A stretch of DNA of 64,000 nt from Cyanobium sp. ATX 6A2 (GTDB taxonomy: Bacteria > Cyanobacteriota > Cyanobacteriia > PCC-6307 > Cyanobiaceae), in contig NZ_JAGQCU010000003.1 in the NCBI RefSeq assembly GCF_024346355.1, positions 1 to 64,000 on the forward strand. Reading direction: 5' to 3'. Each line of letters opens with the position of its first letter. The first letter of the stretch is position 1. The notes under the pieces were generated by a model. It did no database searches. It was not told the origin of the DNA and saw only the letters and a list, made by a program, of their open reading frames with translations. The position numbers and the translations under genes are program-made. Shown in pieces: positions 306-44,897 of the stretch.

Positions 306-791
306 ATGGAGCGTCGTCTGCCCGAGGGCACTGCCGAGGCCTGCTTTCCCAGTCGGTTGGAGTCGACGGCTCTCCTGCTCGACTGGTTTGAGCGGCAGCA
401 GCCGGCGGGGGTGGATCCGATGCTGTGGATTCAGGCCCAGACAGCCCTGGTGGAGGGATTCACCAACGCCGTCCGCCATGCCCACGCCTCCATGGCCGAC
501 CCCCCGGCTGTGGTGGTGGCGCTGGAGGTCACAGCACAGCACCTGCAGCTGCGCCTGCGGGACCATGGCCCTCCGTTCGACATCACCCCGGCCTGGTTGC
601 CCGAGGAGCCTCCAACGGAAGCAACTGGGGATCCTGTGAGGGAGTCCGAGCTGCCGGGGCTGCCCCAGCGGGAAGCCCACTGGGGACTGGTCATGCTGGC
701 CAGGCTGCGTCGCGACTTCGGGTGGTCGATCAGCTATGCCCCTCTCCAGGAGGGGGGCAACGTTCTGATCCTGCGGCGGCCGATGACCTGA
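306..791 (+). CDS. RsbW-like anti-sigma factor / HATPase-domain regulator
   Basis: This 161-residue protein carries the GHKL ATPase fold of serine kinases that act as anti-sigma factors. The N-box is visible as EGFTNAVRHAH (about residues 50-60), then a D-H-G-P-P-F segment (about 80-85) and a G-L-V-M-L segment in the G2 position (about 125). The length matches RsbW/SpoIIAB-type proteins. Known family members bind a sigma factor and phosphorylate a STAS-domain antagonist; STAS and second HATPase genes occur elsewhere in this window. It starts with ATG 2 nt after the sugar transferase remnant. The partner sigma factor is not nearby, so its target is unknown. Confidence 0.8.
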   Translation: MERRLPEGTAEACFPSRLESTALLLDWFERQQPAGVDPMLWIQAQTALVEGFTNAVRHAHASMADPPAVVVALEVTAQHLQLRLRDHGPPFDITPAWLPEEPPTEATGDPVRESELPGLPQREAHWGLVMLARLRRDFGWSISYAPLQEGGNVLILRRPMT

Positions 792-10121: not shown

Positions 10122-11165
10122 ATGGCTTCTGCGTCCGCGGCTCCCGCCCTGCTCGAGCAGCTCCTGCGCGGCGAGTCGCTCAGCCCCGTGCAGGCCACCG
10201 CCCTGATGCAGGACTGGCTGGACGAGCGGATTCCTCCGGTGCTCACCGGCGCCCTGCTGGCGGCGCTGCGCTCCAAGGGCGTCAGCGCCGATGAGCTGGC
10301 CGCCATGGCCGGCGTGCTGCGCGCCGCCTGTCCCCTGCCCGGCGAGCGCCCGGCCCTGCAGCTGGTGGACACCTGCGGCACCGGCGGCGACGGCGCCGAC
10401 AGCTTCAACATCTCCACCGCCGTGGCCTTTGTGGCGGCCGCCTGCGGGGTGCATGTGGCCAAACACGGCAACCGCAGCGCCAGTGGCCGGGTGGGGTCTG
10501 CCGATGTGCTGGAGGCCCTCGAGATCAACCTCCAGGCGCCCCAGGAGCAGGTGGTCGCCGCCCTGCCGCAGGTGGGCGTCACCTTTCTGTTCGCGCCCGG
10601 CTGGCATCCGGCCCTGGTGGGCCTGGCGCCGCTGCGCCGCGCCCTGGGGGTGCGCACCGTGTTCAACCTGCTCGGCCCCCTGGTGAACCCCCTCCAACCC
10701 GAGGCCCAGGTGCTGGGCGTGGCACGGGCCGAGCTGCTCGATCCCATGGCCGGTGCCCTGGCCCGCCTGGGCCTGCGCCGGGCGGTGGTGGTGCACGGTG
10801 CGGGCGGGCTCGACGAGGCCTCGCTGCAGGGCACCAACCAGCTGCGCCTCGTTCAGGACGGCGAGGTGAGCAGCCAGGAGCTCGATCCAGTGGCCCTGGG
10901 GCTCACGCCGGCCCCGATTGCGGCCCTGGCCGGCGGCGATCTGGCCACCAACCGCGCCATCCTCGAAGCCGTGCTCCAGGGCGGCGGCAGTGACGCCCAG
11001 CGCGAGGTGGTGGCCCTGAACACGGCCCTGGTGCTCTGGGCCGCCGGCGCCAGCGACAGCATCGCCTCCGGCCACGCCCAGGCCGCCGAAGCGCTGGCGG
11101 CCGGCAGCCCCTGGCAGAAATTGCTGCAGTTGCGCACAGCACTGCCCGTGGCGGTTGGGGGATGA
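10122..11165 (+). CDS. trpD: Anthranilate phosphoribosyltransferase
   Basis: Second step of tryptophan synthesis: transfers phosphoribose from PRPP to anthranilate. The 347-residue protein has the PRPP-binding motif GTGGDG (86-91), then N-I-S-T (96-99) and K-H-G-N-R-S (114-119). The ATG at 10122 was chosen because the frame upstream reads through the terminator. The 3' end is 25 nt short of the carA start. Other trp genes are not adjacent, as usual in cyanobacteria. Confidence 0.95.
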
Positions 11166-11190
11166 TCAGGGCGCTGTTGCTCCCGGTGCC

Positions 11191-12318
11191 GTGACCACCT
11201 CTGCCCTGCTGATGCTGGCCGATGGCACCCTGCTGCGCGGGGAAGCCTTCGGCGCTGTGGGCACCGCCATCGGTGAAGTGGTGTTCAACACCGGCATGAC
11301 CGGGTATCAGGAAGTGATGACCGATCCCAGCTACTCCGGTCAGCTGGTGACATTCACCTACCCCGAACTGGGCAACACCGGCGTCAACACAGCTGATCAG
11401 GAAGCCCCCCGGCCCCATGTGCGCGGCGTGATCTCCCGCGAGCTCACGCCGGTGACCAGCAACTGGCGTGCCGAAGGCGATCTCGAGCACTGGCTGGCGG
11501 AGAACGGGGTGGTGGGCATCCGTGGTGTCGACACCCGCGCCCTGGTGCGCCACCTGCGCGAGGGTGGCGCGATCAATGGCGCCATCAGCAGTGATGGCTC
11601 CACCCCTGTGGAGCTGCTGGAGCAGGTGCGGGCCGCCCCCTCGATGGAGGGGCTCAACCTGGCCGCCCGGGTGAGCACCGCCGAGCCCTACACCTGGACT
11701 GAGCCCTGCAGCGCGGCGTTCGATACACGCCTGCAGCAAAGGCCCGAACGTCCCTACCGCGTGGTGGCGATCGACTTCGGCATCAAGCGGGCCATCCTCG
11801 ATCGCCTCGTGGCCCACGGCTGCAGCGTCACCGTGCTGCCGGCCGATTCCAGCCTCGAGGCCGTGCTCAGCCACAGCCCTGAGGGGGTGTTCCTCTCCAA
11901 CGGCCCCGGCGATCCGGCCGCGGTGAGCTCGGGTATCGCCCTGGTGAAGGATCTGCTCACCCAGGTTGATCTGCCCCTGTTCGGCATCTGCATGGGCCAC
12001 CAGATTCTGGGCCTGGCCCTGGGGGGCCGCAGCTTCAAGCTTCCCTACGGTCACCGCGGCCTCAATCACCCCTGCGGCAGTCCCGGCCAGGTGGAGATCA
12101 CCAGCCAGAACCACGGCTTTGCGCTCGACGCCGACTCCCTGCCCGCCGATCGGGTGCGGATCACCCACCACAACCTCAACGACCACACCGTGGCGGCCCT
12201 GCAGTTGCTGCATCAGCCGGTGTTTGGAGTGCAGTACCACCCGGAGGCCAGCCCCGGACCCCACGACGCCGACCATCACTTCGCCCGCTTCGCGGCCCTG
12301 ATGGCTGATCGGCGCTGA
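11191..12318 (+). CDS. carA: Carbamoyl-phosphate synthase small (glutaminase) subunit
   Basis: Supplies ammonia from glutamine to CarB for carbamoyl phosphate, the precursor of arginine and pyrimidines. The class I amidotransferase domain contains the nucleophile C267 (GICMGHQ) with H350 and E352 (Y-H-P-E). The GTG at 11191 gives 375 residues, the usual length. A TTG at 11155 would overlap trpD by 11 nt and is less likely. Confidence 0.95.
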
Positions 12319-12335: not shown

Positions 12336-12363
12336 TTGCAGGCCAGGCTCCCATCCCTACACT
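12336..12363 (+). promoter_or_regulatory. Sigma70-like promoter of the STAS gene
   Basis: A -35 hexamer TTGCAG (12336-12341) and a -10 hexamer TACACT (12358-12363) are 16 nt apart, each matching four of six consensus bases. The expected start of transcription is near 12370. This placement excludes the TTG at 12336 as a translation start. Confidence 0.5.
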
Positions 12364-12395
12364 CCCCCCATCGATCCGTCACGAGGACAAGCGCC

Positions 12396-12758
12396 ATCAA
12401 CGACCTGCAGCGACTCACGGTGTCCCTGCGTGGGGGATTCGAGCAGCAGGCTCACTGCCAGCTGTTCCGGTTCACCGGCCAGCTGGACGCCTACTCCGAC
12501 AAACAGTTCGGCGAGTTCATCGCCGCCCACCGCAGCACCGCCCAGCCGCTGCTCGTGGACCTCTCCCACATTGACTTCATCGACTCCTCCGGTCTGGGTG
12601 CCCTGGTGCAGCTGGCCAAGCAGTGCACCGCCGATGGCCAGAACTTTGCGGTGGCGGGCAATGCCCGGGTGGTGCAGACAGTGAAACTGGTGCGACTGGA
12701 GGAGTTTCTGCATCTGCAGCCCGATCTCAAGAGTGCCCTCGCCCGCCTCACCCCCTGA
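12396..12758 (+). CDS. STAS-domain anti-sigma factor antagonist (SpoIIAA/RsbV-like)
   Basis: A small STAS protein of about 120 residues. The phosphorylation-site segment DFIDSSGLGALVQL is present with the conserved Ser pair at about 59-60. Such proteins release sigma factors by binding an RsbW-type kinase, and two candidate kinases are in this window. The start is unusual: no ATG, GTG or TTG lies between the promoter and codon 9 of the conserved frame. An ATC at 12396 sits 8 nt behind a good GAGGA ribosome site (12383-12387). The alternative GTG at 12420 lacks a ribosome site and would trim the first strand. See findings. Confidence 0.88.
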   Translation: MNDLQRLTVSLRGGFEQQAHCQLFRFTGQLDAYSDKQFGEFIAAHRSTAQPLLVDLSHIDFIDSSGLGALVQLAKQCTADGQNFAVAGNARVVQTVKLVRLEEFLHLQPDLKSALARLTP

Positions 12759-13110
12759 GCTGGGTCCCCTGCAGCTGGCCTGGCTGGGGGATGCAGTGTG
12801 GGAGCTGCATCAGCGCCTGAGCCACTGCGCCGCTCCGGCCCGGCCTCGCGACCTGCACCTCAAGGTGGTGGCGGCCGTTCGCGCGGAGGCCCAGGCCCGG
12901 GCCCTGGGCCAGCTGGAGGGACTGCTGCGGGAGGGGGAGCGCGATCTGGTGCGACGCGGCCGCAACCGGGCCGGGCGGGGGCCCCGCAGTGCCGATGCGG
13001 CCACCTATGGGCAGGCCACCGGCTTTGAAACCCTGCTTGGCTGGCTGTTCCTGCACGACCAACCGCGGTTGGATGAACTGCTAGATCACTTGCAGAACAT
13101 CAATCCATAA
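12733..13110 (+). CDS. mrnC: Mini-ribonuclease III (catalytic domain only)
   Basis: A 125-residue RNase III-fold protein without a double-stranded-RNA-binding domain. The Mini-III signature L-A-W-L-G-D-A-V-W-E (about 15-24) provides the catalytic Asp, and the second acidic region is in the C-terminal helix (DELLDHL). In Bacillus and plants this enzyme trims 23S rRNA. The GTG start overlaps the STAS gene by 26 nt. Its neighbour downstream is a 23S rRNA methyltransferase-like gene, consistent with a ribosome-maturation role. Confidence 0.85.
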   Translation: MPSPASPPELGPLQLAWLGDAVWELHQRLSHCAAPARPRDLHLKVVAAVRAEAQARALGQLEGLLREGERDLVRRGRNRAGRGPRSADAATYGQATGFETLLGWLFLHDQPRLDELLDHLQNINP

Positions 13111-44456: not shown

Positions 44457-44897
44457 ATGACCCTGCGCTGGTCAGATTTCATCACCCCCTCCACCCTGCA
44501 GCTGGCGCCTTTGCTGGAGCTGCTGCTGGAGCCGGTGCCCTGCCGGCAGCTCCAGGCGGAACTGCAACTGGGCCTGCAGGAGGCCCTGGTGAATGCCGTG
44601 CGCCACGGCAATGGTGGTGATCCCGGCAAGCTGCTGCGCATCCGCCGCATCGAAACGCCCTGCTGGATGGTGTGGCAGGTGCAGGACGAGGGTTCCGGCG
44701 TTCCGCCCCACTCGCGCCAGGCCGCTTTGCTGCCCTGTCCTGAGGCGGTGGGCGGGCGGGGGCTGTTTCTGATCCAGCACTGCTTCGACGACGTGCGCTG
44801 GAGCCCGCGGGGCAACCGGCTGCAGCTGGCCGTGCGCAAACCCCGGCGCCTTGCCGCAGTGATCAACGGCCGTGGCTGGGGCAGCCGGGGTCGCTGA
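44457..44897 (+). CDS. RsbW-like anti-sigma factor / HATPase regulator
   Basis: 146 residues. The N-box is LGLQEALVNAVRHGNGGDP (about 39-57), followed by V-Q-D-E-G-S-G-V-P-P (about 75-84) and a G-G-R-G-L-F-L-I segment (about 98-105). This is the GHKL fold of SpoIIAB/RsbW kinases. It is about 15 residues shorter than the similar gene at 306-791 and not closely alike. No sigma factor or STAS gene is adjacent. Confidence 0.82.
   Translation: MTLRWSDFITPSTLQLAPLLELLLEPVPCRQLQAELQLGLQEALVNAVRHGNGGDPGKLLRIRRIETPCWMVWQVQDEGSGVPPHSRQAALLPCPEAVGGRGLFLIQHCFDDVRWSPRGNRLQLAVRKPRRLAAVINGRGWGSRGR

Follow-up and report, generated by a model that had tools for sequence, protein, structure and literature searches.

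A conserved AUC, AUU or AUA codon behind a Shine-Dalgarno sequence as the probable translation start of the Ssr1600-type STAS anti-sigma antagonist gene of cyanobacteria

The window analyzed in this work, i.e. the whole stretch of 64,000 nucleotides from contig NZ_JAGQCU010000003.1 of Cyanobium sp. ATX 6A2, contains a short gene for a protein with a single STAS domain (Pfam STAS, E 4.5e-15), located between carA and a gene with an RNase III domain (Table 1). Profile comparison matched the protein to SpoIIAA (1th8_B, E 1.6e-12) and also to RsbV, its AlphaFold2 model has a mean pLDDT of 91.6, and the Foldseek matches of this model (1thn_B, 1th8_B and 6m36_B) belong to the SpoIIAA/RsbV fold. Judging from sequence and predicted structure, the protein is a single-domain anti-sigma antagonist of the SpoIIAA/RsbV type, and its motif D63-S64-S65-G66 (DSSG), which includes the phosphorylatable Ser, is invariant in 29 alignment rows. 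The reading frame is open from a TGA before position 12336 to the stop codon at 12756-12758. The downstream gene, mini-III-like to judge by its size, begins with a GTG inside the STAS gene, the two overlapping by 26 nt (12733-12758); weak translation of the STAS gene could lower the expression of its neighbor through coupling.

Table 1. Features of the STAS locus and the candidate kinase gene in the window
Feature	Position	Strand	Details or basis
STAS anti-sigma antagonist CDS, predicted orthologue of Synechocystis Ssr1600	12396..12758	+	120 aa + stop
ATC, predicted start codon	12396..12398	+	start-codon tally of 151 loci, pattern scan of 386 genomes
Shine-Dalgarno GAGGA, 8 nt 5' of ATC	12383..12387	+	duplex -5.9 kcal/mol
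Codon 7 (CTC in the window), matching the published ssr1600 TTG start	12414..12416	+	offset-6 mapping
Codon 9 GTG, alternative start in the first-pass annotation	12420..12422	+	SD duplex only -0.2 kcal/mol
Ser64-Ser65 of DSSG, matching phosphorylated S59/S60 of Ssr1600	12585..12590	+	alignment, residue mapping, PMC12329169
-10 element TACACT	12358..12363	+	96/113 Cyanobiaceae-type loci, shuffled expectation 3.3
TTGCAG, -35 element of the first-pass annotation; first three bases form the in-frame TTG	12336..12341	+	16-nt spacer
carA, upstream neighbor	11155..12318	+	Pfam
RNase III-domain gene, GTG start, overlaps the STAS 3' end	12733..13110	+	Pfam
RsbW-like anti-sigma kinase, ATG start, candidate partner	44457..44897	+	PF13581 match 44556-44828

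The first-pass annotation had assigned to this gene a promoter composed of TTGCAG and TACACT. Both hexamers are present in the window, but only the second of them is conserved. Of the 113 Cyanobiaceae-type loci, 96 have TACACT at 29-34 nt 5' of the start, versus 3.3 expected from shuffled sequences, and a TATACT-like site was found in 22 of the 38 other loci (shuffled expectation 2.7); we infer that transcription starts about 7 nt 3' of TACACT. On the other hand, a -35 element is not evident in relatives: among the 96 loci with TACACT there are 80 in which, with spacers of 15-19 allowed, no hexamer agrees with TTGACA in more than three of its six bases, a count made without a shuffle control, and TTGCAG was rejected as a conserved -35 element on the basis of this count. 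Several non-picocyanobacterial loci (L035-L072, at about -55 to -35) display, after the -10 element TATACT, a recurrent stretch, TTGAGC or similar to GAAGCCTCGA, that falls at the expected transcript start. As had been noted earlier, the frame contains no canonical start codon between the promoter and the GTG at 12420 (throughout this work, "canonical" denotes ATG, GTG or TTG, and AUH or ATH stands for AUC, AUU or AUA). The only canonical in-frame codon upstream of the ATC at 12396 is the TTG at 12336, inside the proposed -35 hexamer.

Ssr1600 of Synechocystis is an anti-sigma antagonist that controls RNAP-SigC; its binding and phosphorylation by an RsbW/SpoIIAB-like kinase have been demonstrated, its kinases are Slr1861 and PmgA, and S59/S60 are phosphorylated by Slr1861 (PMC12329169). 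The 18 residues named in that paper fit our alignment at an offset of 6, with a mean of 14.84/18 over 38 loci and a full 18/18 in three of them. Other offsets average at most 2.53/18, and the high single values at offsets 7-9 would be expected for loci that carry extra N-terminal codons. Mapped via these residues, the window gene is by sequence the orthologue of ssr1600, with which it shares the gene family and the DSSG phosphorylation site. It follows from the fit at offset 6 that residue 1 of Ssr1600 corresponds to codon 7 of the STAS alignment. In the parts of the Ssr1600 paper considered here, TTG is stated as the initiation codon of ssr1600 (changed to ATG in the overexpression construct), i.e. 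the protein begins at our codon 7, and an AUH codon is not mentioned. Comparison with the alignment suggests that the published start is probably placed six codons too far downstream.

The STAS gene was found in 56 of the 60 genomes searched, the source genome included, and the anchor codon of the alignment, which corresponds to the ATC in the window, encodes Ile in all 56 loci (L002-L057, the window locus among them; 26 of these loci were added by coordinates). Together with 15 loci from genomes missed by the pattern and 80 loci from named records (the best 80 of 556, almost all of them from picocyanobacteria), the alignment comprises 151 loci, which correspond to 138 distinct sequences over the region -40 to +120. 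Such an alignment of homologues was the way to find the start proposed in the first-pass annotation, according to which relatives in other Synechococcus begin with a Met at this point. The anchor codon turned out to be ATC in 80 loci, ATT in 56, ATA in 14 and CTG in one, the window being included in the tally, and such a Met did not materialize, as ATG, GTG or TTG occupies this position in none of the 151 loci. For five loci with 1-4 additional codons past the start, the anchor was reset by eye to the ATH codon that follows the Shine-Dalgarno (SD) sequence. The sole non-AUH start is the CTG of locus L070 (genome G201), which follows AAGGAGGT. One of the genes, of the picocyanobacterial type (L091, 74% identity), comes from a record titled Bifidobacterium breve MAG, a title that looks wrong.

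At the level of the phylum, a pattern scan, the figures of which are motif matches inspected individually only in part, yielded the motif started with ATH in 170 of the 386 genomes and the same motif started with ATG, GTG or TTG in none of the 386; a backward control pattern had hits in two of the 386 genomes among the matches listed. The matches listed for the ATH-started motif all fall within the class of the window (186 genomes by count), and among them a second hit in genome G283 is evidently due to chance. Profile searches of the 16 genomes of the class missed by the motif identified 14 ATT starts, one CTG start and one genome without an orthologue (G157, with weaker STAS matches only). 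Overall, 184 of the 186 genomes of the class have an AUH start, one has CUG, and one lacks the gene. The search for the orthologue gave no match in genome G020, which like G157 is rated 99% complete. Among the 16 genomes searched from the phylum's non-photosynthetic classes, nine gave weak STAS matches (E 1e-8 or better, the best 1.1e-14), and the presence of an orthologue there was rejected, the matches being only of this kind.

The invariance of the AUH codon is not in itself proof of a start, because an internal Ile column of the STAS alignment is ATH in 98.6% of the loci; we therefore rejected conservation as a sole argument. Likewise, on a quick tree of 140 distinct CDS bodies (with L152 retained despite its short frame of 144 nt) the start codon changed a minimum of 18 times, a canonical codon never being among the states, and this minimum alone cannot separate a start codon from a constrained internal Ile. 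The case for the AUH start is supported jointly by the position of the SD sequence, the upstream stop codons, the missing alternatives and the variability of the flanking codons.

In particular, the GAGGA and the ATC in the window, which an earlier inspection had described as lying 8 nt apart, are indeed found at this distance, and at positions -18 to -3 the energy of the SD duplex with the 16S end is -4 kcal/mol or lower in all 150 loci tested (mean -8.5 kcal/mol; one of the 151 loci being omitted due to its short flank). At control positions this value is reached in 16% of cases at -60 to -45 and in 2% at +60. A scan for exact SD matches failed in 28 of the 151 loci, since sites of the GGGGG type pair through G-U, and duplex energies were used in its place. 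The AUH codon is preceded by pyrimidines at both -2 and -1 in 126 of the 151 loci, which has been suggested as a characteristic of translation starts in cyanobacteria (PMC5622118). In 71 of the 151 loci no canonical codon lies between an upstream in-frame stop and the AUH, the stop being at most 10 codons away in 38 of them, and in 26 of the 71 canonical codons are missing from codons 2-20 as well, so that no upstream or near-downstream canonical start is possible there. Initiation at an out-of-frame ATG followed by a frameshift was rejected, because the ATG codons found in any frame between -20 and +19, 11 instances in the 151 loci, are confined to positions -19 to -14. carA precedes the STAS gene in 109/109 and the RNase III-domain gene follows it in 111/111 of those Cyanobiaceae-type loci (113 in all) whose flanks were long enough; the corresponding figures for the 38 other loci are 17 and 23. 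The AUH start is kept despite the differing neighborhood, and it is therefore unlikely to be a by-product of a carA/STAS/RNase III operon. With an AUH codon in 150 of the 151 loci and an SD sequence in every locus tested, these comparisons support the earlier suggestion that translation of the STAS gene initiates at the AUC at 12396. Inside cells, the AUH codon would presumably initiate with a low yield, with IF3 as the discriminating factor, and the expression of the regulator would be lowered, as had also been anticipated.

To our knowledge, few bacterial genes depend on a start codon outside AUG, GUG and UUG. The well-studied non-canonical starts, infC and sigR, are regulated through that codon, and pcnB of E. 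coli, a gene harmful in excess, starts with AUU, which like CUG belongs to the codon class discriminated against by IF3. The STAS gene exhibits a conserved predicted start outside AUG/GUG/UUG behind an SD sequence, as in the class formed by infC, pcnB and sigR; pcnB resembles it in the AUH start but is an unrelated gene. The class-wide conservation of the STAS start codon is unusual. An open-access literature search retrieved no description of an AUH start for a gene of the ssr1600 family. The closest likeness is to sigR of Streptomyces: IF3 represses its GTC start, and replacing this codon by ATG, GTG or TTG disturbs the balance between sigma and anti-sigma factor (PMC5472188). According to the parts of that study considered here, both cases concern a sigma-factor switch in a pathway sensitive to the ratio of proteins, and in both a non-canonical codon preceded by a strong SD is conserved clade-wide and has been misannotated. 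However, the unusual start resides on the sigma factor itself in the case of sigR and on the anti-sigma antagonist here; the sigR codons are GTC or GTT (32/34 GTC and 2 GTT, in one genus), as opposed to AUC, AUU or AUA across a whole class; and the control by IF3 has been demonstrated for sigR, whereas for the cyanobacterial gene we infer it. The infC genes of E. coli (ATT) and Streptomyces (ATC) start with codons of the same AUH class, subject to IF3 discrimination (PMC5472188), but differ from the STAS gene in identity and function. In cyanobacteria a canonical start is available for infC in all 27 parsed loci of the 31 fetched (a first motif missed 13 of the 31 and a widened motif left four unparsed), and the infC gene of the source genome has an ATG immediately following a stop codon. 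Therefore, control of the STAS gene by IF3, which we hypothesize by analogy, would not merely copy the control of infC.

A candidate for the partner of the STAS protein is the RsbW-like kinase encoded in the same window (Table 1). PF13581 matches were found in 57 of the 60 genomes, 54 of them above the family cut-off, but control genomes, E. coli among them, had matches to the family too. In the picocyanobacterial kinase loci a canonical start codon is available in 20/20 of those fetched. The kinase ORF lies 32 kb from the STAS gene; in several relatives a PF13581 gene is found on the same contig at about 24-37 kb from the STAS gene, and PF13581 is matched only once in several of the small picocyanobacterial genomes. 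Near its edge (306-791, forward strand), the window contains a second gene of the RsbW-like HATPase_c_2 family, also starting with ATG.

In our opinion, the observations are in all likelihood best explained by an AUH start behind a good SD sequence that is weak, keeps the antagonist scarce and holds back a sigma factor. The window gene would initiate at the AUC at 12396, and its orthologues in oxygenic cyanobacteria at AUC, AUU or AUA (CUG in one case), likewise behind a good SD. The initiator tRNA would form a mismatch at the third position of AUH (at the first position of CUG), and IF3, which discriminates against such mismatched codons, would make translation weak by design. As the unphosphorylated antagonist is expected to bind the anti-sigma kinase and thereby free the sigma factor (SigC in Synechocystis), a weak start would keep the antagonist scarce relative to the kinase, whose gene has canonical start codons available, and a growth-limiting sigma factor would be held back. 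Two observations on Synechocystis concern the dosage of this protein: at high CO2 the cells grew more slowly when Ssr1600 was raised, and the mutant without the omega subunit was rescued by suppressor mutations through which only traces of Ssr1600 remained (PMC12329169).

It is quite conceivable, although somewhat less than probable, that translation does start at the AUH codon, but merely with a low yield that is fixed, IF3 varying too little to regulate the gene. In the case of sigR, enhanced translation upon oxidative stress could not be shown in the parts of that work considered here (PMC5472188), and we found no counter-evidence to a fixed yield. Such a reading shares the start codon and the weak yield with the explanation favored above and differs from it in regulation.

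It is much less plausible that translation begins at a downstream canonical codon, the TTG at codon 7 or the GTG at codon 9, with the AUH region left untranslated; we regard this as very unlikely. The construct in which the codon 7 TTG was changed to ATG gave an active protein when overexpressed in Synechocystis (PMC12329169), and codon 9 is a GTG in the window. This GTG, placed inside the first strand by the first-pass annotation, precedes the first long predicted strand (residues 11-17) by two residues; the predicted fold would tolerate a start there and be left largely whole, and for this reason the predicted structure alone does not decide between AUH and codon 9. However, among the 151 loci, codon 7 is canonical in 50, where its SD duplex averages -0.03 kcal/mol and that of the AUH -7.99 kcal/mol; for the 44 loci with a canonical codon 9 the corresponding means are -0.39 and -8.2 kcal/mol. 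There are no cases in which the duplex of codon 7 or 9 is stronger than that of the AUH. Pyrimidines at -2 and -1 are found before codon 7 in 2/50 loci and before codon 9 in 22/44. Most of the variation in codons 7 and 8 is synonymous: 144 of the 151 loci encode Leu at codon 7 and 146 encode Thr at codon 8 (with the five re-anchored loci out of register in these tallies), all six Leu codons and all four Thr codons are used, and therefore translation appears to begin before codon 9. The 26 loci with a canonical start neither upstream nor up to codon 20 also argue against a downstream start. In-frame canonical codons preceded by an SD-like stretch were found between codons -12 and 25 in 27 of the 151 loci, and 33 of their 37 instances fall at codons 22-24, past the strand 11-17. 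Codons 7 and 9 were thus rejected as starts, having no SD sequence and not being conserved, and the use of the GTG at 12420, considered earlier as an alternative to the AUC, is unlikely.

Translation from an upstream canonical codon, such as the TTG at 12336 in the window, would turn the conserved Ile into an internal residue. This TTG is in frame and preceded by an SD-like duplex of -8.4 kcal/mol, stronger than that of the ATC (-5.9 kcal/mol), it could give a longer protein on a transcript running on from carA, and 80 of the 151 loci do not combine an upstream in-frame stop with an absence of canonical codons between this stop and the AUH. Nonetheless, we consider such a start highly improbable. 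Upstream canonical codons have no conserved position among the 56 loci compared, and both the counterpart of the TTG and any other upstream canonical codon are absent from the two relatives that are 94-95% identical (L003 and L004). The TTG lies upstream of the transcript start expected from the conserved TACACT promoter, the conserved SD directly precedes the AUH, and in the 38 loci with an in-frame stop at most 10 codons upstream nothing canonical intervenes; upstream starts were rejected on account of these close stops and the unconserved position. Finally, a sequencing error at 12398 or a recent mutation of an ATG in the source genome, both raised earlier, have a negligible probability, since the AUH kept in 150 of the 151 loci, with a canonical codon in none, excludes an error, chance and a recently lost ATG alike.

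Returning to the AUH start as a weak initiation site, we tentatively propose, as a possibility that we hold with some doubt, that since the common ancestor of the class this codon has been sensed by IF3 on the antagonist of the Ssr1600/SigC pathway rather than on infC, and that the gene reports how translation initiation stands, in terms of IF3 per ribosome, to the sigma-factor switch acting as a brake on growth and photosynthesis. If the AUH start is correct, the published work on ssr1600 uses a start six codons too far downstream, the overexpression construct with ATG would bypass the natural control point of the gene, and gene finders limited to ATG, GTG and TTG would misplace the start of the STAS gene across cyanobacteria. 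The control of the SigC switch by IF3 would become directly testable in a standard laboratory strain. A non-canonical start, apparently class-wide, would reside in a regulator that is under study for its role in acclimation to CO2 and light.
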